From positions 1 to 21,259 of IMG/VR virus record IMGVR_UViG_3300044637_000411: a stretch of 21,259 bases of DNA. One strand, 5' to 3'. The notes below the pieces were generated by a model. It ran no database searches and had not been told where the DNA came from. It was given only the letters and a program-made list of their open reading frames with translations. Of this stretch, positions 1 to 14,875 are shown piece after piece. This DNA is from a virus. The position numbers and the translations under genes were made by a program. Position 1 is the stretch's first letter. Each line of letters opens with the position of its first letter.

Positions 1-554
1 GATGTAAGAAATAGACCCTGCGAATTTGTCACCGCTGCGTTAACACGACCGTTTGATGAGTTATAGTTATCCCAAATACAGTTACCACTACCACGCTTAC
101 ATAATACTTGAATTGCTGGTTGACCACCACTATTTGTTCCACACTCAGTATCCTCACCTGTATTAGATGTTCTTGAATAAACCGACATACTATTACTTGT
201 GGTTATCGCTGGAACAGTTCCGTAGAATGTGGTCATTACCAAACCTGTTTGTCCATATGAATTTGTACCATTACCTTTCACACCTGTCGATGCAAATGTT
301 GCACCACCGTTCCAAGTAATTGTATATGTTGTTGGGTCCACCAAATTATATTTGGTTGTTGTTGATGTACCTCCGATAAACGGATATATGATGTACATCT
401 TTGACCATAATGAATTGCTCTTTAAATCAAGAACCAATTGATTAACAGCGTTCTTCTGCGTGGTATCTGTAATACCTGCCGCAGTTATAAACGCTTGTGC
501 ATTTGGGTCATACACAGCTCCTGAATTAAAAAATGCAAATGCAGCAAAATTCAT
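1..554 (-). CDS. Partial phage surface or fibre-associated protein, C-terminus outside window
   Basis: The start codon is at 554 and the frame stays open to the left edge, giving 184 codons without a stop. The ATG shares one base with the stop of the upstream fibre gene (TAATG), which suggests translational coupling. The N-terminus (MNFAAFAFFNSGAVYDP) is followed by a segment with SLWSKMYIIYPFIGG near residues 50-65, then a Gly/Thr/Asn/Ser-rich stretch that looks beta-structured. From memory, this arrangement occurs in surface or tail proteins of Bacteroidetes phages, where the later part is often lectin-like; that match was not tested here. Sitting directly after the long collagen-like fibre, it is most likely part of the same attachment apparatus. 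I see no catalytic motif in the visible part. Confidence 0.75.
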   Translation of the reverse strand, partial: MNFAAFAFFNSGAVYDPNAQAFITAAGITDTTQKNAVNQLVLDLKSNSLWSKMYIIYPFIGGTSTTTKYNLVDPTTYTITWNGGATFASTGVKGNGTNSYGQTGLVMTTFYGTVPAITTSNSMSVYSRTSNTGEDTECGTNSGGQPAIQVLCKRGSGNCIWDNYNSSNGRVNAAVTNSQGLFLT

Positions 555-3500
555 TATACTAAGTTCTTTACGTTTGCTAGGTAAAGTGATGATGTATCAA
601 AACTTACCAATGTTATTATATCATTACCTACCGCAGTTGTTGGAACATATGCTGAACCAGAAACTTGTTTAATTGAAGTTGGGAATGATACTGTACCAGA
701 TCCTGTTGTGTTTAATAACACGTTAATTGTTTGACCTGCTTTAATGTTTGATGGTTCAATTCTAATATCTTGAGAACCTGTTAGTGCTAAGACAAAGAAG
801 TTACCGTTATTTAAATTCAATGATGCTGTATTGGATGATACTGCTAATGCGTTAACATTACCTTGAACATATCCAGTTATTGATGCTGAACCAGTTACAG
901 TTAATGAACCAGATACAACTAAACCATTTTTAAAATTAATCACAGGATTTGCACCTTTTCCTGTCATAAAAGGAGCACTATTTGGTAAACCCATTGCAAA
1001 TAAATCATCACCTAATTCAGCTATTTGGAAATTGTGATTGCTTGTACCAATTATTAATGTGTTAGAACCTGATGTGTAGTTACCGTTTGTTGAGTTACCA
1101 ATGACAGTTACATTGTTACCAGATACAAATTGATTTGCTGCTGAGTTACCAATGAATAAGTTACTTGAACCAGATACGATTGAGTTACCAGCAAATGTTC
1201 CAAAGAATATATTGCTAGAACCAGATGTTAATTGATACGCTGCATCATTACCCCAGAACTGATTATCAGATCCAGATAAAAATCCTTGACCTGCACCAGA
1301 ACCAACTGCTGTATTTCTTCTACCAATTGTAAGTAATTTTAATGCTCTAAAACCAAATGCTGTGTTATCTTGTTCTGTAACATTTTGTAATGCTTGACTA
1401 CCAACTGCTGTTGATTGGTTTGAACCTGATTTAATTGTTAAACCATTTATTGAGCCAGTTTCATTAATGTTTAATGAACCTAATATTGTTTGTGTTGAAC
1501 CAGCGGAACCTGTTGTAATAACTCCTGCTGGTGCTGGTAAATTTGTTAAACCAGAACCATCACCAACGAATGAACCTGTGAAAGAAGAACCAGATACTGA
1601 ACCATCAACATTTAATGAGCCAGATATTAAAACCGAACCTGTTATTCTTGTATTGTTTCCACTATCAACGTGTATTGCGTTTCTTCTTGAACTTGCGTTT
1701 GTACCTGTTCCAACAACAAACACAGCTTCTTGTGAACTTTCTTGTAATGAACCTGTTGCGTTGAACCTACCTACTATAACTGTACCACCAGATGTTGTTG
1801 ATGTATGTGATGCTGATACAATTAAATTATCACCCAATACCGCTGTTGAAACTAAGTGTCCTGCTGATGAACCACTTTGTTGAGAGTTAATTATATTACT
1901 TCTACCTATTACTACGTTACTATCAAATGTTCTTCTATTTGATGTATTAGAACCACTTATCACTAAAGTATTTGATTGTCCACCAAGTATATTTCCTGTA
2001 ACCGTTGCGTTATTTACTGCTGTTGAAACTGATGATGAATAGTTATTAGTAACCGTCATACCACCACCAACATTACCTTGATAAGTTATTGATGAACTAT
2101 TATGATTTAAAGTAACATGAGGAAAGGAAACTCCTGCAAAAATATTATATACGATACTTGGGTTTAATCCTAATGTTGTTGTATTTGCGTTTGAAGTAAA
2201 ACCTTGACCCCCAACATAGTTAAAACTGAAACCAACACTACCACTTTGATGAAGTATTTGTGTACTTCCATATATCAAGTTACTGTTAACATTTGGTGCT
2301 GCTAATGAGCTTGATGTAAATTGTAATAATATTGCTCCCTGTAAAGCATTATTGGATATGGTTGGTCGTAATAATGACCCCGTTCCTATCACTGGTATTG
2401 TTGAACCAATATTACTATTACCACCGATATATCCGTATGTTCCTGCTGTTACTAATGTGTTTGCTCTTGTACCTCCAAGTAAAATATTGTTTGAACCTGA
2501 TATTACAATTGAACCTGTTTGCCCTGCCGCTGCAGGACCTGTTAATCCACCGAATATAATGTTAGATTGTGATATAGGTGCGGATGCTGATATATTCATT
2601 TTAACTGAACCACTATTAAATGCTTCAGAGAATATATCAATTAAACCATTATTAACAACACCACCAATTAAACTACCAGATATAATAACATCAGGTAAAT
2701 TTAAACTACCTGTAATTACTTGTGTTGATGTAATTGAACCTGTTGTTATAAGTCCTGTATAATCTACCACACCACTTGTTCCTGAAGTACCAGATGTTCC
2801 ACTTGTACCTGATGAACCTGCTTGACCAGATGTTCCTGACGTTCCTGAACTACCACTATCACCACTTGTACCAGATGTACCGCTACTTCCAGATGTGCCA
2901 GATGTACCTGATGGTGATGTAATAAGAATAAACAACATATCATGGTTATTTGGAAACGAAAATGTTGCTGTTTGTAAAGTAACAGGGAATGTCCAATATG
3001 TTCCATTATCAACTCCTGTACCTATTGTCCACTCTTGATAATTCGTATGATTTGATTGGTCTTGTAAAGATATAGTTGAACCTGAGGTTATGTTGGATAA
3101 AAATATATCCACGTTATTTCCTAATTGGTCTATCTCACTTACATTAATTGATGTTGCACCTGATTGTACTACGTTATCCCAAATGATATGTCCTGAACCA
3201 GGGTCACCACTTTGGATATTGTCTTTTGCTTTATAGTTGAAGAATGAACTTGATAATCCACTCGTACCACTAGAACCACTAGAACCAGAAGTTCCACTTG
3301 AACCATTGCTTCCTGAAGTACCACTAGTACCTGATGAGCCATCCGACCCGCTTGTACCAGATGTTCCTGAACTTCCTGTCGCTCCACTTGTACCTGACGT
3401 TCCTGATGAACCCGCCTGACCACTCGTACCACTTGACCCATTAGATCCTGAGGTTCCACTTGTTCCTGAAGAACCAGAAGACCCTGACGTTCCACTAGAC

Positions 3501-4156
3501 CCTGAGGTTCCTGAACTACCAGATGTTCCACTAGTCCCTGAAGAACCACTATCTCCACTCGTACCTGATGTACCAGATGTACCTGACGTACCACTGGTTC
3601 CACCACTAAACGCAACACCATTAACAAGATATTGTCCTGTTACATCTATTGAACCTGTTACACTAAATGAACCTGAAAAGTTTATACCATTGTCTGCTAC
3701 GATATCAATACGTTTAACCGAACCGTAATTGTCAACCTTGACATATGTTACATCGTCACCTAAGAATATTTGACCACCACTTGCTGTGATGTGTGTATCT
3801 AATGGTGATGTATTATATATTTCTACATATCTTGCATCAGATTGATTTGGTTTTAAGAATAAACTTCCTGTACCAATAATATCTGTTGAGAATAATGAAC
3901 CTGTTATTGTTTGATTACCGATAAATGTATTACTACCTGTGGTTGCAAATGAACCTGTATCAATTGAAATAGGTGCACCATTAACGGTTAATGAACCAGA
4001 GATGTTTACCTGAGTTAAACTCATTTGCAATGGAGAATTATCCCCATCACCTGTTTGAACAGTTTGTAGTGTGTTAGTTAAACCATTAGTACTATCAGTC
4101 ATCTTTAATAGACCCTGATAGGATTGTGATACATAGAGATTTGTTAATTGACCCAT
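554..4156 (-). CDS. Long collagen-like phage tail fibre / virion surface fibre
   Basis: This 1200-residue protein is built of repeats. Residues 1-180 hold beta-type units with repeated (I/L)TGSL and SGSLTVNG motifs. Two collagen-like Gly-X-Y blocks (about 184-300 and 415-463) are made almost only of GTS and GSS triplets. They flank a globular insert of about 115 residues that contains GHIIWDNVVQSG and YQEWTIGTG. The middle has more SGS/TGS turns and a FTGSFVGDGSGLTNLP motif. Residues about 915-1040 hold YadA-head-like repeats of the type NTAVGSGAG and NLFIGNSAA. The end is a small beta domain. No peptidase S74 self-cleaving chaperone is seen at the C-terminus. These features fit a trimeric fibre used for host binding; the exact position on the virion is inferred. 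The ATG at 4156 lies 21 bp after the preceding gene. Confidence 0.85.
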   Translation of the reverse strand: MGQLTNLYVSQSYQGLLKMTDSTNGLTNTLQTVQTGDGDNSPLQMSLTQVNISGSLTVNGAPISIDTGSFATTGSNTFIGNQTITGSLFSTDIIGTGSLFLKPNQSDARYVEIYNTSPLDTHITASGGQIFLGDDVTYVKVDNYGSVKRIDIVADNGINFSGSFSVTGSIDVTGQYLVNGVAFSGGTSGTSGTSGTSGTSGDSGSSGTSGTSGSSGTSGSSGTSGSSGSSGTSGTSGSNGSSGTSGQAGSSGTSGTSGATGSSGTSGTSGSDGSSGTSGTSGSNGSSGTSGSSGSSGTSGLSSSFFNYKAKDNIQSGDPGSGHIIWDNVVQSGATSINVSEIDQLGNNVDIFLSNITSGSTISLQDQSNHTNYQEWTIGTGVDNGTYWTFPVTLQTATFSFPNNHDMLFILITSPSGTSGTSGSSGTSGTSGDSGSSGTSGTSGQAGSSGTSGTSGTSGTSGVVDYTGLITTGSITSTQVITGSLNLPDVIISGSLIGGVVNNGLIDIFSEAFNSGSVKMNISASAPISQSNIIFGGLTGPAAAGQTGSIVISGSNNILLGGTRANTLVTAGTYGYIGGNSNIGSTIPVIGTGSLLRPTISNNALQGAILLQFTSSSLAAPNVNSNLIYGSTQILHQSGSVGFSFNYVGGQGFTSNANTTTLGLNPSIVYNIFAGVSFPHVTLNHNSSSITYQGNVGGGMTVTNNYSSSVSTAVNNATVTGNILGGQSNTLVISGSNTSNRRTFDSNVVIGRSNIINSQQSGSSAGHLVSTAVLGDNLIVSASHTSTTSGGTVIVGRFNATGSLQESSQEAVFVVGTGTNASSRRNAIHVDSGNNTRITGSVLISGSLNVDGSVSGSSFTGSFVGDGSGLTNLPAPAGVITTGSAGSTQTILGSLNINETGSINGLTIKSGSNQSTAVGSQALQNVTEQDNTAFGFRALKLLTIGRRNTAVGSGAGQGFLSGSDNQFWGNDAAYQLTSGSSNIFFGTFAGNSIVSGSSNLFIGNSAANQFVSGNNVTVIGNSTNGNYTSGSNTLIIGTSNHNFQIAELGDDLFAMGLPNSAPFMTGKGANPVINFKNGLVVSGSLTVTGSASITGYVQGNVNALAVSSNTASLNLNNGNFFVLALTGSQDIRIEPSNIKAGQTINVLLNTTGSGTVSFPTSIKQVSGSAYVPTTAVGNDIITLVSFDTSSLYLANVKNLV

Positions 4157-11951: not shown

Positions 11952-11972
11952 ATGTTATAATATAAATACTTG

Positions 11973-12018
11973 AAAAAAAACAAAAAGTCCGCAGGATGAT
12001 GGAAGCAAACCTACGGAC
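11973..12018 (-). terminator. Terminator-like hairpin in the leader of the left operon
   Basis: On the minus strand GTCCGTAGG (12018-12010) pairs with CCTGCGGAC (11995-11987), with one A-C mismatch and a 14-nt loop, followed by TTTTTGTTTTTTTT (11986-11973). It lies only 21 nt before the first ATG of the operon, so it acts either as an attenuator or as the end of a short leader RNA. Confidence 0.6.
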
Positions 12019-12053
12019 CTTATAAGTAGTTAATATATTAAACTAACTATACT

Positions 12054-12120: not shown

Positions 12121-12151
12121 TATGGAATTTACGATTTTTTATGTATATTTA
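12121..12151 (+). promoter_or_regulatory. Possible promoter for RNA element 1 and the plus cassette
   Basis: TATATTTA (12144-12151) is a one-base variant of TAnnTTTG and lies 19 nt after TATG (12121-12124), a poor match to TTTG. Position fits: a start near 12156 would place GCACTTCAC almost at the 5' end of the transcript. Confidence 0.25.
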
Positions 12152-12195
12152 ACATTATACGTCGCACTTCACAATTTACCGACATTAAAGATTTT

Positions 12196-12258
12196 AAGGG
12201 TTGTCTAACGAAAACTGAAGTGAAGTGCAGTGATTAGTTGGATGACCCTTTTTTGTTT
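12196..12258 (+). ncRNA. Structured RNA element, copy 1 (leader of the plus cassette)
   Basis: AAGGGTTGTCTAA (12196-12208) pairs along all 13 positions, including G-U pairs, with TTGGATGACCCTT (12238-12250), followed by a T-rich tract. Inside, ACTG (12214-12217) pairs with CAGT (12228-12231) around the loop AAGTGAAGTG. A near-identical copy lies at 14819-14875. This copy ends about 20 nt before the ATG at 12273, so it could end a short RNA or attenuate the operon. I know of no named RNA family with this sequence. Confidence 0.7.
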
Positions 12259-12272
12259 AAAACTATTTAGAT

Positions 12273-12920
12273 ATGGCTAAACGATTTACTGATAGTGAAA
12301 AATGGGAAGACCCGTTTTTTACTAACCTAACAAATGATGAAAAGGTAATTTGGATTTACCTGTTGGACCACTGCGATAACGCTGGTGTTCTTAAAATTAA
12401 TATTAAAAATATTAATTACTTTTGTTCTACGAACATAACGGTTGAGGAATTATTTATTACTTTCCAAGGTAGATTAACTAAAATTTCAGTTGATACTTGT
12501 ATTATTAATAAATTTTGTTACTTCCAATATGGTCCCGATTTTCTTCAAAGTAATAATAAAGCAGTCCAATCTGCTATTAAAAAATTACTTGAATTGGGTA
12601 TAGTTCAATTAGTTAATAATACTTATATCCTATCAATACCCTATCAATACTCTATAGATAGCCCCAAAGAAGAAGTAAAAGAAGAGGATGAAGTTGAGGA
12701 TGAAGTTATTGATAAAAAAGAAGATTGGAATATAAAACAAATTAAAAACAGAGTTGAGGAAGATTGTAAAATTCCAAGTAATGTTAAAACTAGTGTAATA
12801 GCAATAATTGATGGTTATTTTACTAGAACACAAGTAGAATTAGTTAATGAAAATAAAAATTATTTCAAAAACATAAAAGCAACTCATCCAATTCTTAATG
12901 AAGTGGGTATAACATTTTAA
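12273..12920 (+). CDS. Replication-initiator-like winged-helix protein
   Basis: A 215-residue protein whose N-terminus MAKRFTDSEKWEDPFF, then LTNDEKVIWIYLLDHCDNAGVL, matches the start of a group of phage replication proteins that I recall from Bacteroidetes and Firmicutes phages (DnaD/O-like N-terminal winged helix). LLELGIVQLVNNTYIL (about 106-121) looks like the wing. A highly acidic linker (EEVKEEDEVEDEVIDKKED, about 130-150) separates it from a C-terminal helical domain. The expected role is to bind the origin and recruit a helicase loader, but no helicase is in the window. It is the first gene of the plus-strand cassette. The ATG at 12273 lies just after RNA element 1 and has no Shine-Dalgarno. 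Confidence 0.7.
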   Translation: MAKRFTDSEKWEDPFFTNLTNDEKVIWIYLLDHCDNAGVLKINIKNINYFCSTNITVEELFITFQGRLTKISVDTCIINKFCYFQYGPDFLQSNNKAVQSAIKKLLELGIVQLVNNTYILSIPYQYSIDSPKEEVKEEDEVEDEVIDKKEDWNIKQIKNRVEEDCKIPSNVKTSVIAIIDGYFTRTQVELVNENKNYFKNIKATHPILNEVGITF

Positions 12921-12931
12921 ACTTAAAAATC

Positions 12932-13243
12932 ATGAAAATAACAGAAAAAGTTGTATCTTTATCAGAGAAGGTTGAGATACTTTTAACAAGGTATCCCAAC
13001 CTTAGGGATGATGATAAATTATTAGTAACCAAGATGTGGTATTTTGAAATGAAGAAAGTTAATCTTGAACCAAATAACACGCCAGTTTCATTGTTCTTTA
13101 CTTTATATAAAGAAGGAAAACTATCCAATGCTGAAGTAATTGGTAGAGCAAGACGTAAAGTTCAAGAATTAAATCCAGAACTTCGTGGTAAGAATTGGGA
13201 AGATAGACACAAAGAAGCGGAAGATACTAGATTAACAATATAA
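12932..13243 (+). CDS. Conserved-type phage protein of unknown function
   Basis: A 103-residue, highly charged helical protein. Segments YPNLRDDDKLLVTKMWYFEM (about 20-39) and RARRKVQELNPELRGKNWEDR (in parts, about 73-94) resemble a small protein that I recall as widespread in phage early regions, usually annotated hypothetical. The Arg/Lys-rich C-terminal half could bind nucleic acid. It follows the initiator gene after 11 nt and is probably co-transcribed with it. No catalytic motif is seen. Confidence 0.75.
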   Translation: MKITEKVVSLSEKVEILLTRYPNLRDDDKLLVTKMWYFEMKKVNLEPNNTPVSLFFTLYKEGKLSNAEVIGRARRKVQELNPELRGKNWEDRHKEAEDTRLTI

Positions 13244-13254
13244 AAATTACTCAA

Positions 13255-13479
13255 ATGGAAGCAGTAAAAACAAAGACAACCCAAGAGCAGATTGTATCTC
13301 AATCTCAACTAGACAGAGCATTAGAATTTCTTAAGACACAGGAAGTTCAATTTGGTCTAAAAGAAATTATTGGTGTATCATCGGTGTTAGAAGATTACGT
13401 AATACACGGTTGGACAAAAGAATTAAACACAAGAGTATCTGCGTTGGATACTTGGATTAAAGAACAAAAAAAAAAGTAA
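13255..13479 (+). CDS. Small helical protein, ends on an A10 slippery run
   Basis: A 74-residue protein with an N-terminal Thr/Lys/Gln-rich start (MEAVKTKTTQEQIVSQ) and two amphipathic helices. No family is recognised. The last codons are CAA AAA AAA AAG TAA, which contain the in-phase heptamer A AAA AAG directly before the stop. A -1 slip there would add Val-Asn-Lys and then run into the ATG of the next gene in frame, giving a fusion of about 174 residues. It lies 11 nt after the preceding gene. Confidence 0.65.
   Translation: MEAVKTKTTQEQIVSQSQLDRALEFLKTQEVQFGLKEIIGVSSVLEDYVIHGWTKELNTRVSALDTWIKEQKKK
13466..13476 (+). other. A10-G run with in-phase A AAA AAG heptamer
   Basis: The heptamer at 13470-13476 has the sequence and phase of the classic dnaX-type -1 slippery site and sits directly before the TAA stop. 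The following gene is in the -1 frame. It may simply reflect a Lys-rich end plus the A-rich initiation region of the next gene. Confidence 0.3.
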
Positions 13480-13484
13480 ATAAA

Positions 13485-13778
13485 ATGGAAGCAAAACAAA
13501 CAACTTACGGAAATCTTGTTAATTACAGAACAAGAAGAATTAATATGTTGAATGATGTTACTATCAATTCAATGAACGATAAAGATGAAATTATCCCTGT
13601 TACTTTAAATAAGGGTAGAAAATACAAAATTGATGACTGTTGCAGAATGGACTCTGATGGTTTATCTTTGATGTTATGCACCGTTACGGATGTCGTGTTT
13701 GGTTACAGATACGAGTGCATATTGGAATGTTCGGAGGTTATTGATTTATTTCTGTTCGCAGAAATGTCTCAATGCTGA
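13485..13778 (+). CDS. Small Cys-containing protein of unknown function
   Basis: A 97-residue protein starting MEAKQTTYGNLVNYRTRRIN. The middle has YKIDDCCRMDSDGLSLMLCT and the end CILECSEVIDLFLFAEMSQC, so five to six Cys residues are spread over the last 50 positions, without a regular zinc pattern. The fold is probably a small beta barrel, judging by alternating hydrophobic residues. The ATG is 5 nt after the previous stop, in the -1 frame relative to it. A strong terminator follows 37 nt downstream, so this is the last gene of the first plus-strand unit. Confidence 0.65.
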   Translation: MEAKQTTYGNLVNYRTRRINMLNDVTINSMNDKDEIIPVTLNKGRKYKIDDCCRMDSDGLSLMLCTVTDVVFGYRYECILECSEVIDLFLFAEMSQC

Positions 13779-13814
13779 TTTATTATATCTCATATTTTTG
13801 TTTAAGAATACATT

Positions 13815-13850
13815 GGGTCCCATTGGTGTGAGGGACCCTTTGTTTTTTTT
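13815..13850 (+). terminator. Intrinsic terminator after the first plus-strand gene block
   Basis: GGGTCCC (13815-13821) pairs perfectly with GGGACCC (13832-13838) around a 10-nt loop and is followed by TTTGTTTTTTTT. It lies 37 nt after the stop at 13778. Confidence 0.85.
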
Positions 13851-13868
13851 ATAACTTTTATATATTTA
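13839..13868 (+). promoter_or_regulatory. Candidate promoter for a small RNA
   Basis: TTTG (13839-13842) is followed after exactly 18 nt by TATATTTA (13861-13868). The spacing equals that of the stronger promoter at 14038-14067, and the second box differs from TAnnTTTG only in the last base. The TTTG overlaps the T-tract of the preceding terminator. Confidence 0.4.
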
Positions 13869-13950
13869 TAGTAGGAGGGTGGTTCTCTACTATGTAAATT
13901 TAATTTAAACCTACCCCTTTGGTTATGATTGATATAACCACCCTCTTTTT
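13869..13950 (+). ncRNA. Candidate small RNA with closed 5'-3' stem
   Basis: GAGGGTGGTT (13875-13884) is perfectly complementary to AACCACCCTC (13936-13945), which is followed by TTTTT. Alternative pairings exist: ATAGTAG (13868-13874) with CTACTAT (13887-13893), which puts GGTGGTT in a loop, and GGTTAT (13921-13926) with ATAACC (13934-13939). The RNA can therefore form a terminator stem closing its ends, or two local hairpins. It lies between two terminators and has a promoter-like sequence in front. Confidence 0.5.
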
Positions 13951-13974
13951 CATTTCATTTTTATAGGAAAAAAG

Positions 13975-14000
13975 AACTCACCAATTTGGTGGGTTTTTTA
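13975..14000 (+). terminator. Second intrinsic terminator before the 14.1 kb promoter
   Basis: AACTCACC (13975-13982) pairs with GGTGGGTT (13988-13995), including one G-U pair, around AATTT, followed by a T-tract. An A-tract precedes it, so it could also work from the other strand, although no minus-strand gene is nearby. Confidence 0.7.
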
Positions 14001-14037
14001 TTGATAACCAATCAGTTATAATTTTTTTAATATTTTT

Positions 14038-14067
14038 TTTGTAATATAAAGAATATGCCTATCTTTG
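14038..14067 (+). promoter_or_regulatory. Bacteroidetes-type housekeeping promoter
   Basis: TTTG (14038-14041), 18 nt, then TATCTTTG (14060-14067) is an exact match to the TTTG / TAnnTTTG consensus known for the primary sigma factor of Bacteroidetes. A start near 14073 leaves a leader of about 40 nt before the ATG at 14114. It would be read by host polymerase without phage factors, as expected for an early gene. Confidence 0.75.
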
Positions 14068-14113
14068 TGTCTCATTAAAGTCGGGGACAGGATATATCTG
14101 AACATAAAAAGTT

Positions 14114-14362
14114 ATGAAAAATTATTTAACACAAAAGATTGCAAAACCTGAAACACCTCAACAAATGTTAGCAAGGGCGTTAAAACAATTACGAAATTCA
14201 AAACCTTCAATTAAAGAAAACCCTATTGATGCTTCTTTACGTAATTTAATTGAATGCATTCTGTTACAACCGAGAAATCAACTTATCGGTAACTTAAATT
14301 ACGTTGTAGACAACCTAAACGAATTAGGTCTTGACTATACAATCACATTAAAAACCAAATAG
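14114..14362 (+). CDS. Small early protein of unknown function
   Basis: An 82-residue, basic, mainly helical protein (MKNYLTQKIAKPETPQQML, then RNLIECILLQPRNQLIGNLNYVV). It has no recognisable domain. It is the first gene behind the best host-type promoter in the window, so it is likely expressed early and strongly; host takeover proteins often occupy such positions, but that is inference. It shares the start context AGTTATGAAAAATTA with the next gene. Confidence 0.65.
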   Translation: MKNYLTQKIAKPETPQQMLARALKQLRNSKPSIKENPIDASLRNLIECILLQPRNQLIGNLNYVVDNLNELGLDYTITLKTK

Positions 14363-14364
14363 TT

Positions 14365-14793
14365 ATGAAAAATTACACAACAATGGGAGAACTTATGAAA
14401 GTAGCAGAAACCAAAATGGCTTGTACTGAACACACCATCAAATGGTTTAACGATATGAAAGTTCATCTTAAAAAAGAATATCAAATGACAAAAAAAACAA
14501 ATAAAAGTTTATCTAATTGTCCTTTTGAAGTTTATGTTTTATTAAGTTTATCTGCATTTAAACAAAAAGAACAAAATCCAAATCAAGTTGAAATTGATTT
14601 ATTTAATGATATTTGTGATTTTTATGTTCAAAATTATCAAGAAGTAAATGAAGATTATAAAGTTGATAAAATGAGATGCAAATCCTTATTTGAATATATC
14701 TTCACTGCTTTTGATAGACATAATACAAGAAATTGGTCTTTAAGTTTATCAGATGTAATGACTAGTTTTAAAGATTTTAAACCCCAAGATTAG
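14365..14793 (+). CDS. Early protein of unknown function
   Basis: A 142-residue protein starting 2 nt after the previous stop. It is helical and charged, with KWFNDMKVHLKKEY (27-40), a CPFEVYVLLSLSAFKQKEQ segment and an acidic VNEDYKVDKM. No transmembrane segment, Cys pair or known catalytic motif is seen. It is the last gene of the plus cassette, and RNA element 2 with its U-tract follows 25 nt after the stop, acting at least as the terminator. Confidence 0.7.
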   Translation: MKNYTTMGELMKVAETKMACTEHTIKWFNDMKVHLKKEYQMTKKTNKSLSNCPFEVYVLLSLSAFKQKEQNPNQVEIDLFNDICDFYVQNYQEVNEDYKVDKMRCKSLFEYIFTAFDRHNTRNWSLSLSDVMTSFKDFKPQD

Positions 14794-14818
14794 GTTTGCT
14801 CATAACTTCCTAACTAAT

Positions 14819-14875
14819 AAGGGTTGTCTAAGAAAACTGAAGTGAAGACCAGTGAGTATTAGATGACCCTTTTTT
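14819..14875 (+). ncRNA. Structured RNA element, copy 2 (end of the plus cassette)
   Basis: AAGGGTTGTCTAA (14819-14831) pairs with TTAGATGACCCTT (14859-14871) along 13 positions, followed by T's. The inner stem ACTG (14836-14839) / CAGT (14850-14853) encloses AAGTGAAGAC. Compared with copy 1 the one stem difference changes a U-G to a U-A pair, so pairing is kept. It also serves as terminator for the plus operon, between convergent genes. Confidence 0.7.

Follow-up and report, generated by a model that had tools for sequence, protein, structure and literature searches.

The window analysed here is the whole 21,259-nucleotide stretch of the virus record IMGVR_UViG_3300044637_000411. It carries two similar RNA hairpins on the plus strand, copy 1 (12196-12250) ahead of the first gene of a plus-strand block and copy 2 (14819-14871) at its end, each followed by a T-tract. 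The coordinates and common orientation given in a preliminary description proved correct. Both copies contain the 13-pair outer stem, the ACTG/CAGT inner stem and the core GAAAACTGAAGTGAAG, and they differ by a TG-to-AC change in the loop and a U-G to U-A change in the stem. Folded alone, copy 1 reached -22.3 kcal/mol (z -5.1) and copy 2 -20.2 kcal/mol (z -5.2), values that 0 of 200 shuffles equalled in either case. Blastn recovered copy 2 from copy 1 at E 1.9e-17, and a covariance model scored it at 70 bits (E about 1e-13 to 1e-12); the match between them is beyond chance. With z-scores of about -5 and T6 tracts, both combine the stable hairpin and U-tract of an intrinsic terminator. A simple terminator scan (loop 3-8) listed neither, the structure being larger than that scan allows.

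Copy 1 begins at about 12158 rather than at 12196, as only its 3' half had been recognised before. An additional 5' hairpin, P1, with the sequence GTCG-CACTTCACAATTTAC-CGAC, lies 15 bases upstream of the terminator hairpin, P2. The reverse complement of the P1 loop strand (L1, CACTTCAC) is exactly the terminator loop strand (L2, GTGAAGTG); the two loop bases distinguishing copies 1 and 2 sit within this loop-loop pairing partner. The features of both copies and of the adjoining genes are collected in Table 1.

Table 1. Features of the two elements and their surroundings in the window
Feature	Position	Strand	Basis or remark
Virus record IMGVR_UViG_3300044637_000411 (window, 21 kb)	1-21,259		IMG/VR
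-7 box TATATTTA, Bacteroidota-type promoter	12144..12151	+	Nine bases before P1
Predicted transcript start	12156-12157	+	From -7 box spacing
P1, 5' hairpin	12161..12183	+	Stem GTCG 12161-12164 / CGAC 12180-12183; covariation
L1, CACTTCAC, loop strand of the 8-bp loop-loop helix	12165..12172	+	Exact complement of L2
Linker ATTAAAGATTTTAA, with ACATTAAAG strongly conserved	12184..12197	+	Alignment
P2, terminator hairpin	12198..12248	+	Outer stem 12198-12208 / 12238-12248; covariation, folding
P2, extra pair and inner stem	12209/12237; 12214-12217 / 12228-12231	+	Covariation, folding
Loop-E / sarcin-ricin-like internal loop	12210..12236	+	GAAA 12210-12213 opposite GATTA 12232-12236; consensus only
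L2, GTGAAGTG, loop strand pairing with L1	12220..12227	+	Covariation
Copy 1 U-tract	12249..12254	+	Sequence
First gene downstream of the leader, 215 aa	12273..12920	+	No confident family
Promoter-like site of second unit, TTG-18-TATCTTTG	14039..14067	+	Sequence, Bacteroidota consensus
Two small genes of second unit	14114-14793	+	Function unassigned
Copy 2, P2 terminator without P1	14821..14875	+	Loop GTGAAGAC 14842-14849; U-tract 14870-14875

Pattern scans and protein-led searches retrieved about 32 distinct elements in IMG/VR phages, with the paired stem changes that the preliminary description had asked of homologues. Exact degenerate patterns were used on the viral collection and will have passed over members that are more distant. 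The main alignment comprises 27 distinct elements, for which an exact loop match was an entry requirement. Two scans served as bias controls, one on the terminator half alone, without P1, and one on the linker and stem only, without the loop. All true elements in both carried the 8/8 loop match, with the exact complement 47-49 nucleotides upstream, except window copy 2. The element of a further record, L010, reached through its protein similarity alone, also has 8/8 loop pairing.

Across the 27 aligned elements, all 216 of 216 cells of the 8-bp loop-loop helix are paired, with no mismatch and no G-U pair. Both sides changed in 49 cells, against 12.9 in shuffles, and none changed on one side only; two-sided changes affect six of the eight pairs. 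The covariation score was reached by 0 of 500 shuffles, and slid controls collapsed. The helix occurs in 12 sequence versions (L1/L2): CACTTCAC/GTGAAGTG in the window, and elsewhere TGCTTCAC/GTGAAGCA, CGCTTCAC/GTGAAGCG, GTCTTCAC/GTGAAGAC, CTCTTCAC/GTGAAGAG, CTCATCAC/GTGATGAG, CTTCTCAC/GTGAGAAG, GTTCTCAC/GTGAGAAC, CATCTCAC/GTGAGATG, CCTCTTAC/GTAAGAGG, CCTTCAAC/GTTGAAGG and CCATTCAC/GTGAATGG. The loop is thus the fastest-changing paired part of the element, and its cis partner changes along with it. On a tree built from the non-kissing columns, kissing pairs underwent a mean of 4.6 inferred changes and P2 pairs 2.4; this is an upper estimate of the contrast, inflated by the shortness of the tree and by its omission of the kissing columns. 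This variation may reflect compensated drift or selection for distinct loops. In L010, the first gene is 88% identical (residues 1-131), yet the loop pair is different.

These results recast the earlier interpretation of copy 1. It is indeed more than a plain terminator, and the suspected base-pairing target of its loop exists in cis, as L1 in P1. The loop is not, however, as conserved as the stem. A freely varying loop had been named among the observations that would speak against a special role; the loop does vary, but its variation is fully compensated.

The remaining helices covary as well. The P1 stem occurs as GTCG/CGAC, GTCC/GGAC, GTTC/GAAC and GATC/GGTC, and the 11-pair outer stem and the inner stem of P2 also covary; the stems include G-U pairs, fitting RNA. 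A candidate hairpin in the linker (UUAAA/UUUAA) was discarded, its covariation being no better than that of shuffles. GAAA opposite GAGUA is the consensus of the loop-E / sarcin-ricin motif. Most members have exactly this internal loop (GAGTA in DNA), and nearly all elements of the common type, type I, have AGUA opposite GAA or close variants, such as AUUA in window copy 1 and ACUA in L010. The consensus match thus suggests that the internal loop is a loop-E / sarcin-ricin motif. A rarer type II (L060, L102, L181) keeps P1, the linker and the 8/8 loop pairing but has an unrelated terminator stem (AAACCCUUGUA/UACAGGGGUUU in L181) with a U-tract. Its internal loop, AAGUAC opposite AGAAA, matches a loop-E-like consensus with the strands swapped. 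Since type II retains both loop pairing and a hairpin plus U-tract despite its unrelated terminator, these are the kept features of the element.

The family seemingly is restricted to uncultured Bacteroidota phages. Whole-window and single-element scans (type I and type II) against Rfam 15 all remained far below the gathering score, in agreement with the earlier statement that no RNA family could be named. Searched at the DNA level, isolate phages and plasmids yielded a single match to the element, due to chance. The host of the window phage is probably a member of the Flavobacteriia, because its terminase resembles that of Flavobacterium phage 11b (47% identity) and its portal that of Nonlabens phage P12024S (30% identity). 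The covariance model found no element in these nearest isolates or in Cellulophaga phi10:1, most of which was searched. A bacterial pattern scan of 84,980 species returned nine stretches, none with the element, and a model search of 396 genomes around one Flavobacteriia assembly returned nothing under strict filters, a weak negative.

The position of the element relative to promoter and gene is highly regular. A -7 box lies 3-10 nucleotides before P1 in 32 of 32 elements, with TTTG 18-20 nucleotides upstream of it in 21 of 32; window copy 1 shows no clear -33 TTTG. The Flavobacterium promoter consensus is TTTG/TANNTTTG, with 4-5 nucleotides to the start (PMC6847099). From the end of the stem to the start codon there are 7-25 nucleotides in all 27 type I elements measured, a gap too short for another promoter, so that the terminator stands between the promoter and the first gene with no promoter between them. 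The first genes are of the HTH_36, Lin1244_N and DUF6291 types, and 10 of the 15 tested matched PHROG families for replication initiation or DnaD-like loaders. Since the gene behind the leader differs among phages, the control element stays in place while the gene is exchanged.

We propose, with a probability of about one half, that copy 1 is a leader attenuator of roughly 100 nucleotides, controlling a phage replication operon and tuned by an intramolecular kissing loop. Transcription of the plus-strand (replication-initiator) operon would begin at P1 or a few bases before it. P1 would fold first and P2 would emerge next, whereupon pairing of their 8-nucleotide loops would give a compact kissing-loop structure that includes a loop-E-type internal loop. 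As an intrinsic terminator, P2 with its U-tract would leave the downstream genes to be made by read-through only, and docking of P1 on the terminator loop would regulate termination. The order of promoter, leader, terminator and gene, leaving no room for another promoter, makes the element an attenuator by architecture. The promoter position, P1, P2, the loop-loop helix, the U-tract and the gene order are all evident in the compared sequences; from them we infer actual termination at P2, the direction of the docking effect and what sets docking. A regulatory role for docking is suggested by copy 2, which lacks P1, has a non-matching loop and serves where only termination is needed, and by the survival of loop pairing through complete replacement of the terminator in type II. 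That docking most likely lowers termination is our guess. Several observations weigh against this proposal. The U-tract is imperfect in some members (TTTGTTATT, TTATTTTTT), which may mean weak termination or a translational role for the U-rich stretch. The four helices seem compatible with one another, and no mutually exclusive antiterminator is evident. The first gene in the window has a weak resemblance to replication-initiation proteins and no confident family, and the first open reading frame encodes another small protein in L013, L055, L121 and L123.

The terminated leader might instead be the product itself, a stable trans-acting small RNA with its 5' hairpin locked to the terminator loop, the first gene being expressed by occasional read-through. 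Promoter, compact fold and terminator do delimit a discrete RNA, and IsrK of the Gifsy-1 prophage is likewise a phage leader in which an internal terminator yields a short RNA and a read-through mRNA (PMC4825925), although IsrK is linked to other genes, has a shown action in trans and belongs to a Salmonella host. We regard this as unlikely, given that the variable loop strands are already occupied within their own molecule, that the examined sequence of the phages does not repeat their own loop 8-mers elsewhere (2 found against 7.9 expected), and that no trans target was found among those stretches.

The diversity of the loops raises another possibility, modelled on the loops of plasmid incompatibility RNAs: the kissing loops of these lytic phages would form a phage-specific code, with leaders pairing in trans, matching leaders interfering in a co-infected cell and non-matching ones not, and versions diverging to avoid or impose such interference. 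The number of loop versions, their rate of change relative to P2, the lack of G-U intermediates, the case of L010 and the mismatch between the copy 2 loop and the window phage's own L1 would all fit, and in plasmids a few loop changes switch compatibility (PMC10724649). However, each loop has its partner within the same molecule, variable loops would equally result from neutral, compensated drift where pairing is strictly kept, and the rate contrast is inflated by the tree used. An antisense promoter facing the leader (-33/-7 pairs) was found in 1 of 27 elements with a strict pattern and in 0 of 27 with a sense-like pattern, which recovers 18 sense promoters among the same 27. No tyrosine integrase (PF00589), the marker sought for lysogeny, was detected in 44 records, a weak absence as many are fragments. 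We therefore hold such a code to be rather improbable.

Two further readings seem very unlikely. The element shares its 5'-end position in an early-type unit, its two stem-loops and its length of about 70-100 nucleotides with HK022 putL and putR, which open early phage transcripts and bind the beta' zinc-binding domain of RNA polymerase to confer downstream termination resistance (PMC9378689). Against a put-like RNA, which would bind the polymerase so that downstream terminators are ignored, stands the U-tract at the end of the element's own second stem. The available part of the put source describes direct polymerase binding, with neither an internal terminator nor a kissing helix, and the comparison is by description only. 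Equally hard to favour is an ordinary stable leader, in which the fold protects the 5' end of the mRNA, the U-rich stretch aids ribosome entry and P2 does not terminate. The short distance to the start codon and the A at -3 in 20 of 27 elements would suit it, as in Bacteroidota both mRNA structure and adenines ahead of the start codon tune translation (PMC6847099), but copy 2 places the same hairpin and T6 at an operon end, and type II re-creates a hairpin and U-run from different sequence. Finally, a DNA-level inverted repeat serving as operator for a phage protein, with which the perfect Watson-Crick matching would agree, is scarcely credible: the 8-mers always occupy the loops of hairpins, the stems of which show covariation that includes G-U pairs and fits RNA, they start about 55 nucleotides apart, and their variable core is unsuited to reading by one protein.

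Copy 2 lacks P1 and the linker and shares 95% identity with the terminator half of the L009 element; L009 and L013 are sister phages of the window phage (61-64% protein identity). The window L1 could pair with the copy 2 loop at six of eight positions only, and the matching partner of that loop, GTCTTCAC, occurs nowhere else in the window. Copy 2 lies between convergent genes, a terminator position, and the second promoter-like site in the plus-strand block implies that it ends a second, separate unit. In L009 and L013 the two genes of this unit are missing and copy 1 stands alone; none of the other searched records has a second element. The idea that the two copies mark the ends of a cassette consequently lacks support as a general rule, although in the window copy 2 does accompany two extra genes. 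The first of these looks like a mobile cassette gene, as it is absent from both sister phages and L010 encodes its homologue on the opposite strand. Apart from copy 2, a single additional model match below E 1e-3 arose in the element-bearing genomes, and it was rejected as an ordinary GGGACCC-type terminator. At the start of the second unit (14060-14090), a possible hairpin GTCTC-ATTAAAGTCG-GGGAC includes CATTAAAG, as does the element linker, which may be a coincidence.

Three observations concern the surrounding genes. A protein resembling that of window gene 3 (13255-13479) is encoded in L004 (5860-6084) on the strand opposite the element; judged by eye and unaligned, this case suggests that small genes near the element switch side between phages. 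A hairpin-like stretch, GTCCGCAGGATGATGGAAGCAAACCTACGGAC (11962-12022), kept in L009 and L013, lies upstream of the divergent minus-strand gene and is probably that gene's own leader or a terminator. The minus strand also encodes a 1200-aa protein with collagen-like repeats (554-4156; PF01391, E 1.4e-22).

Neither leader attenuators nor kissing loops are new as kinds of element; we found no description of this element, nor of their combination on a phage replication operon, in the open-licence literature searched. In the attenuators of pT181 and pIP501, too, the leader of a replication initiator gene contains a premature terminator, but they are driven by an antisense transcript (PMC5703833), for which the phage element shows no consistent promoter. 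The repZ leaders of the IncI-complex and ColIb-P9 plasmids also precede a replication initiator and rely on long-range loop pairing, with loops that differ between compatible replicons. Their pseudoknot, however, acts on translation and an antisense RNA is present (PMC10724649 and papers cited there), whereas the phage element has a terminator and no antisense promoter was found; the likeness is one of description. GOLLD and ROOL are phage-borne structured RNAs with kissing loops too, but they are large (GOLLD often over 800 nucleotides), form multimers and, in the available parts of the sources, are not described as leaders of replication genes.

The element represents a so far undescribed family of structured RNA, strongly supported by covariation, at an apparent switch of phage replication genes. 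If the proposed mechanism is true, read-through would be set in an unusual way, by kissing loops that dock on an intrinsic terminator. The fully compensated variation of the loops in an otherwise conserved RNA also makes loop identity as a cue of self and other directly and cheaply testable.

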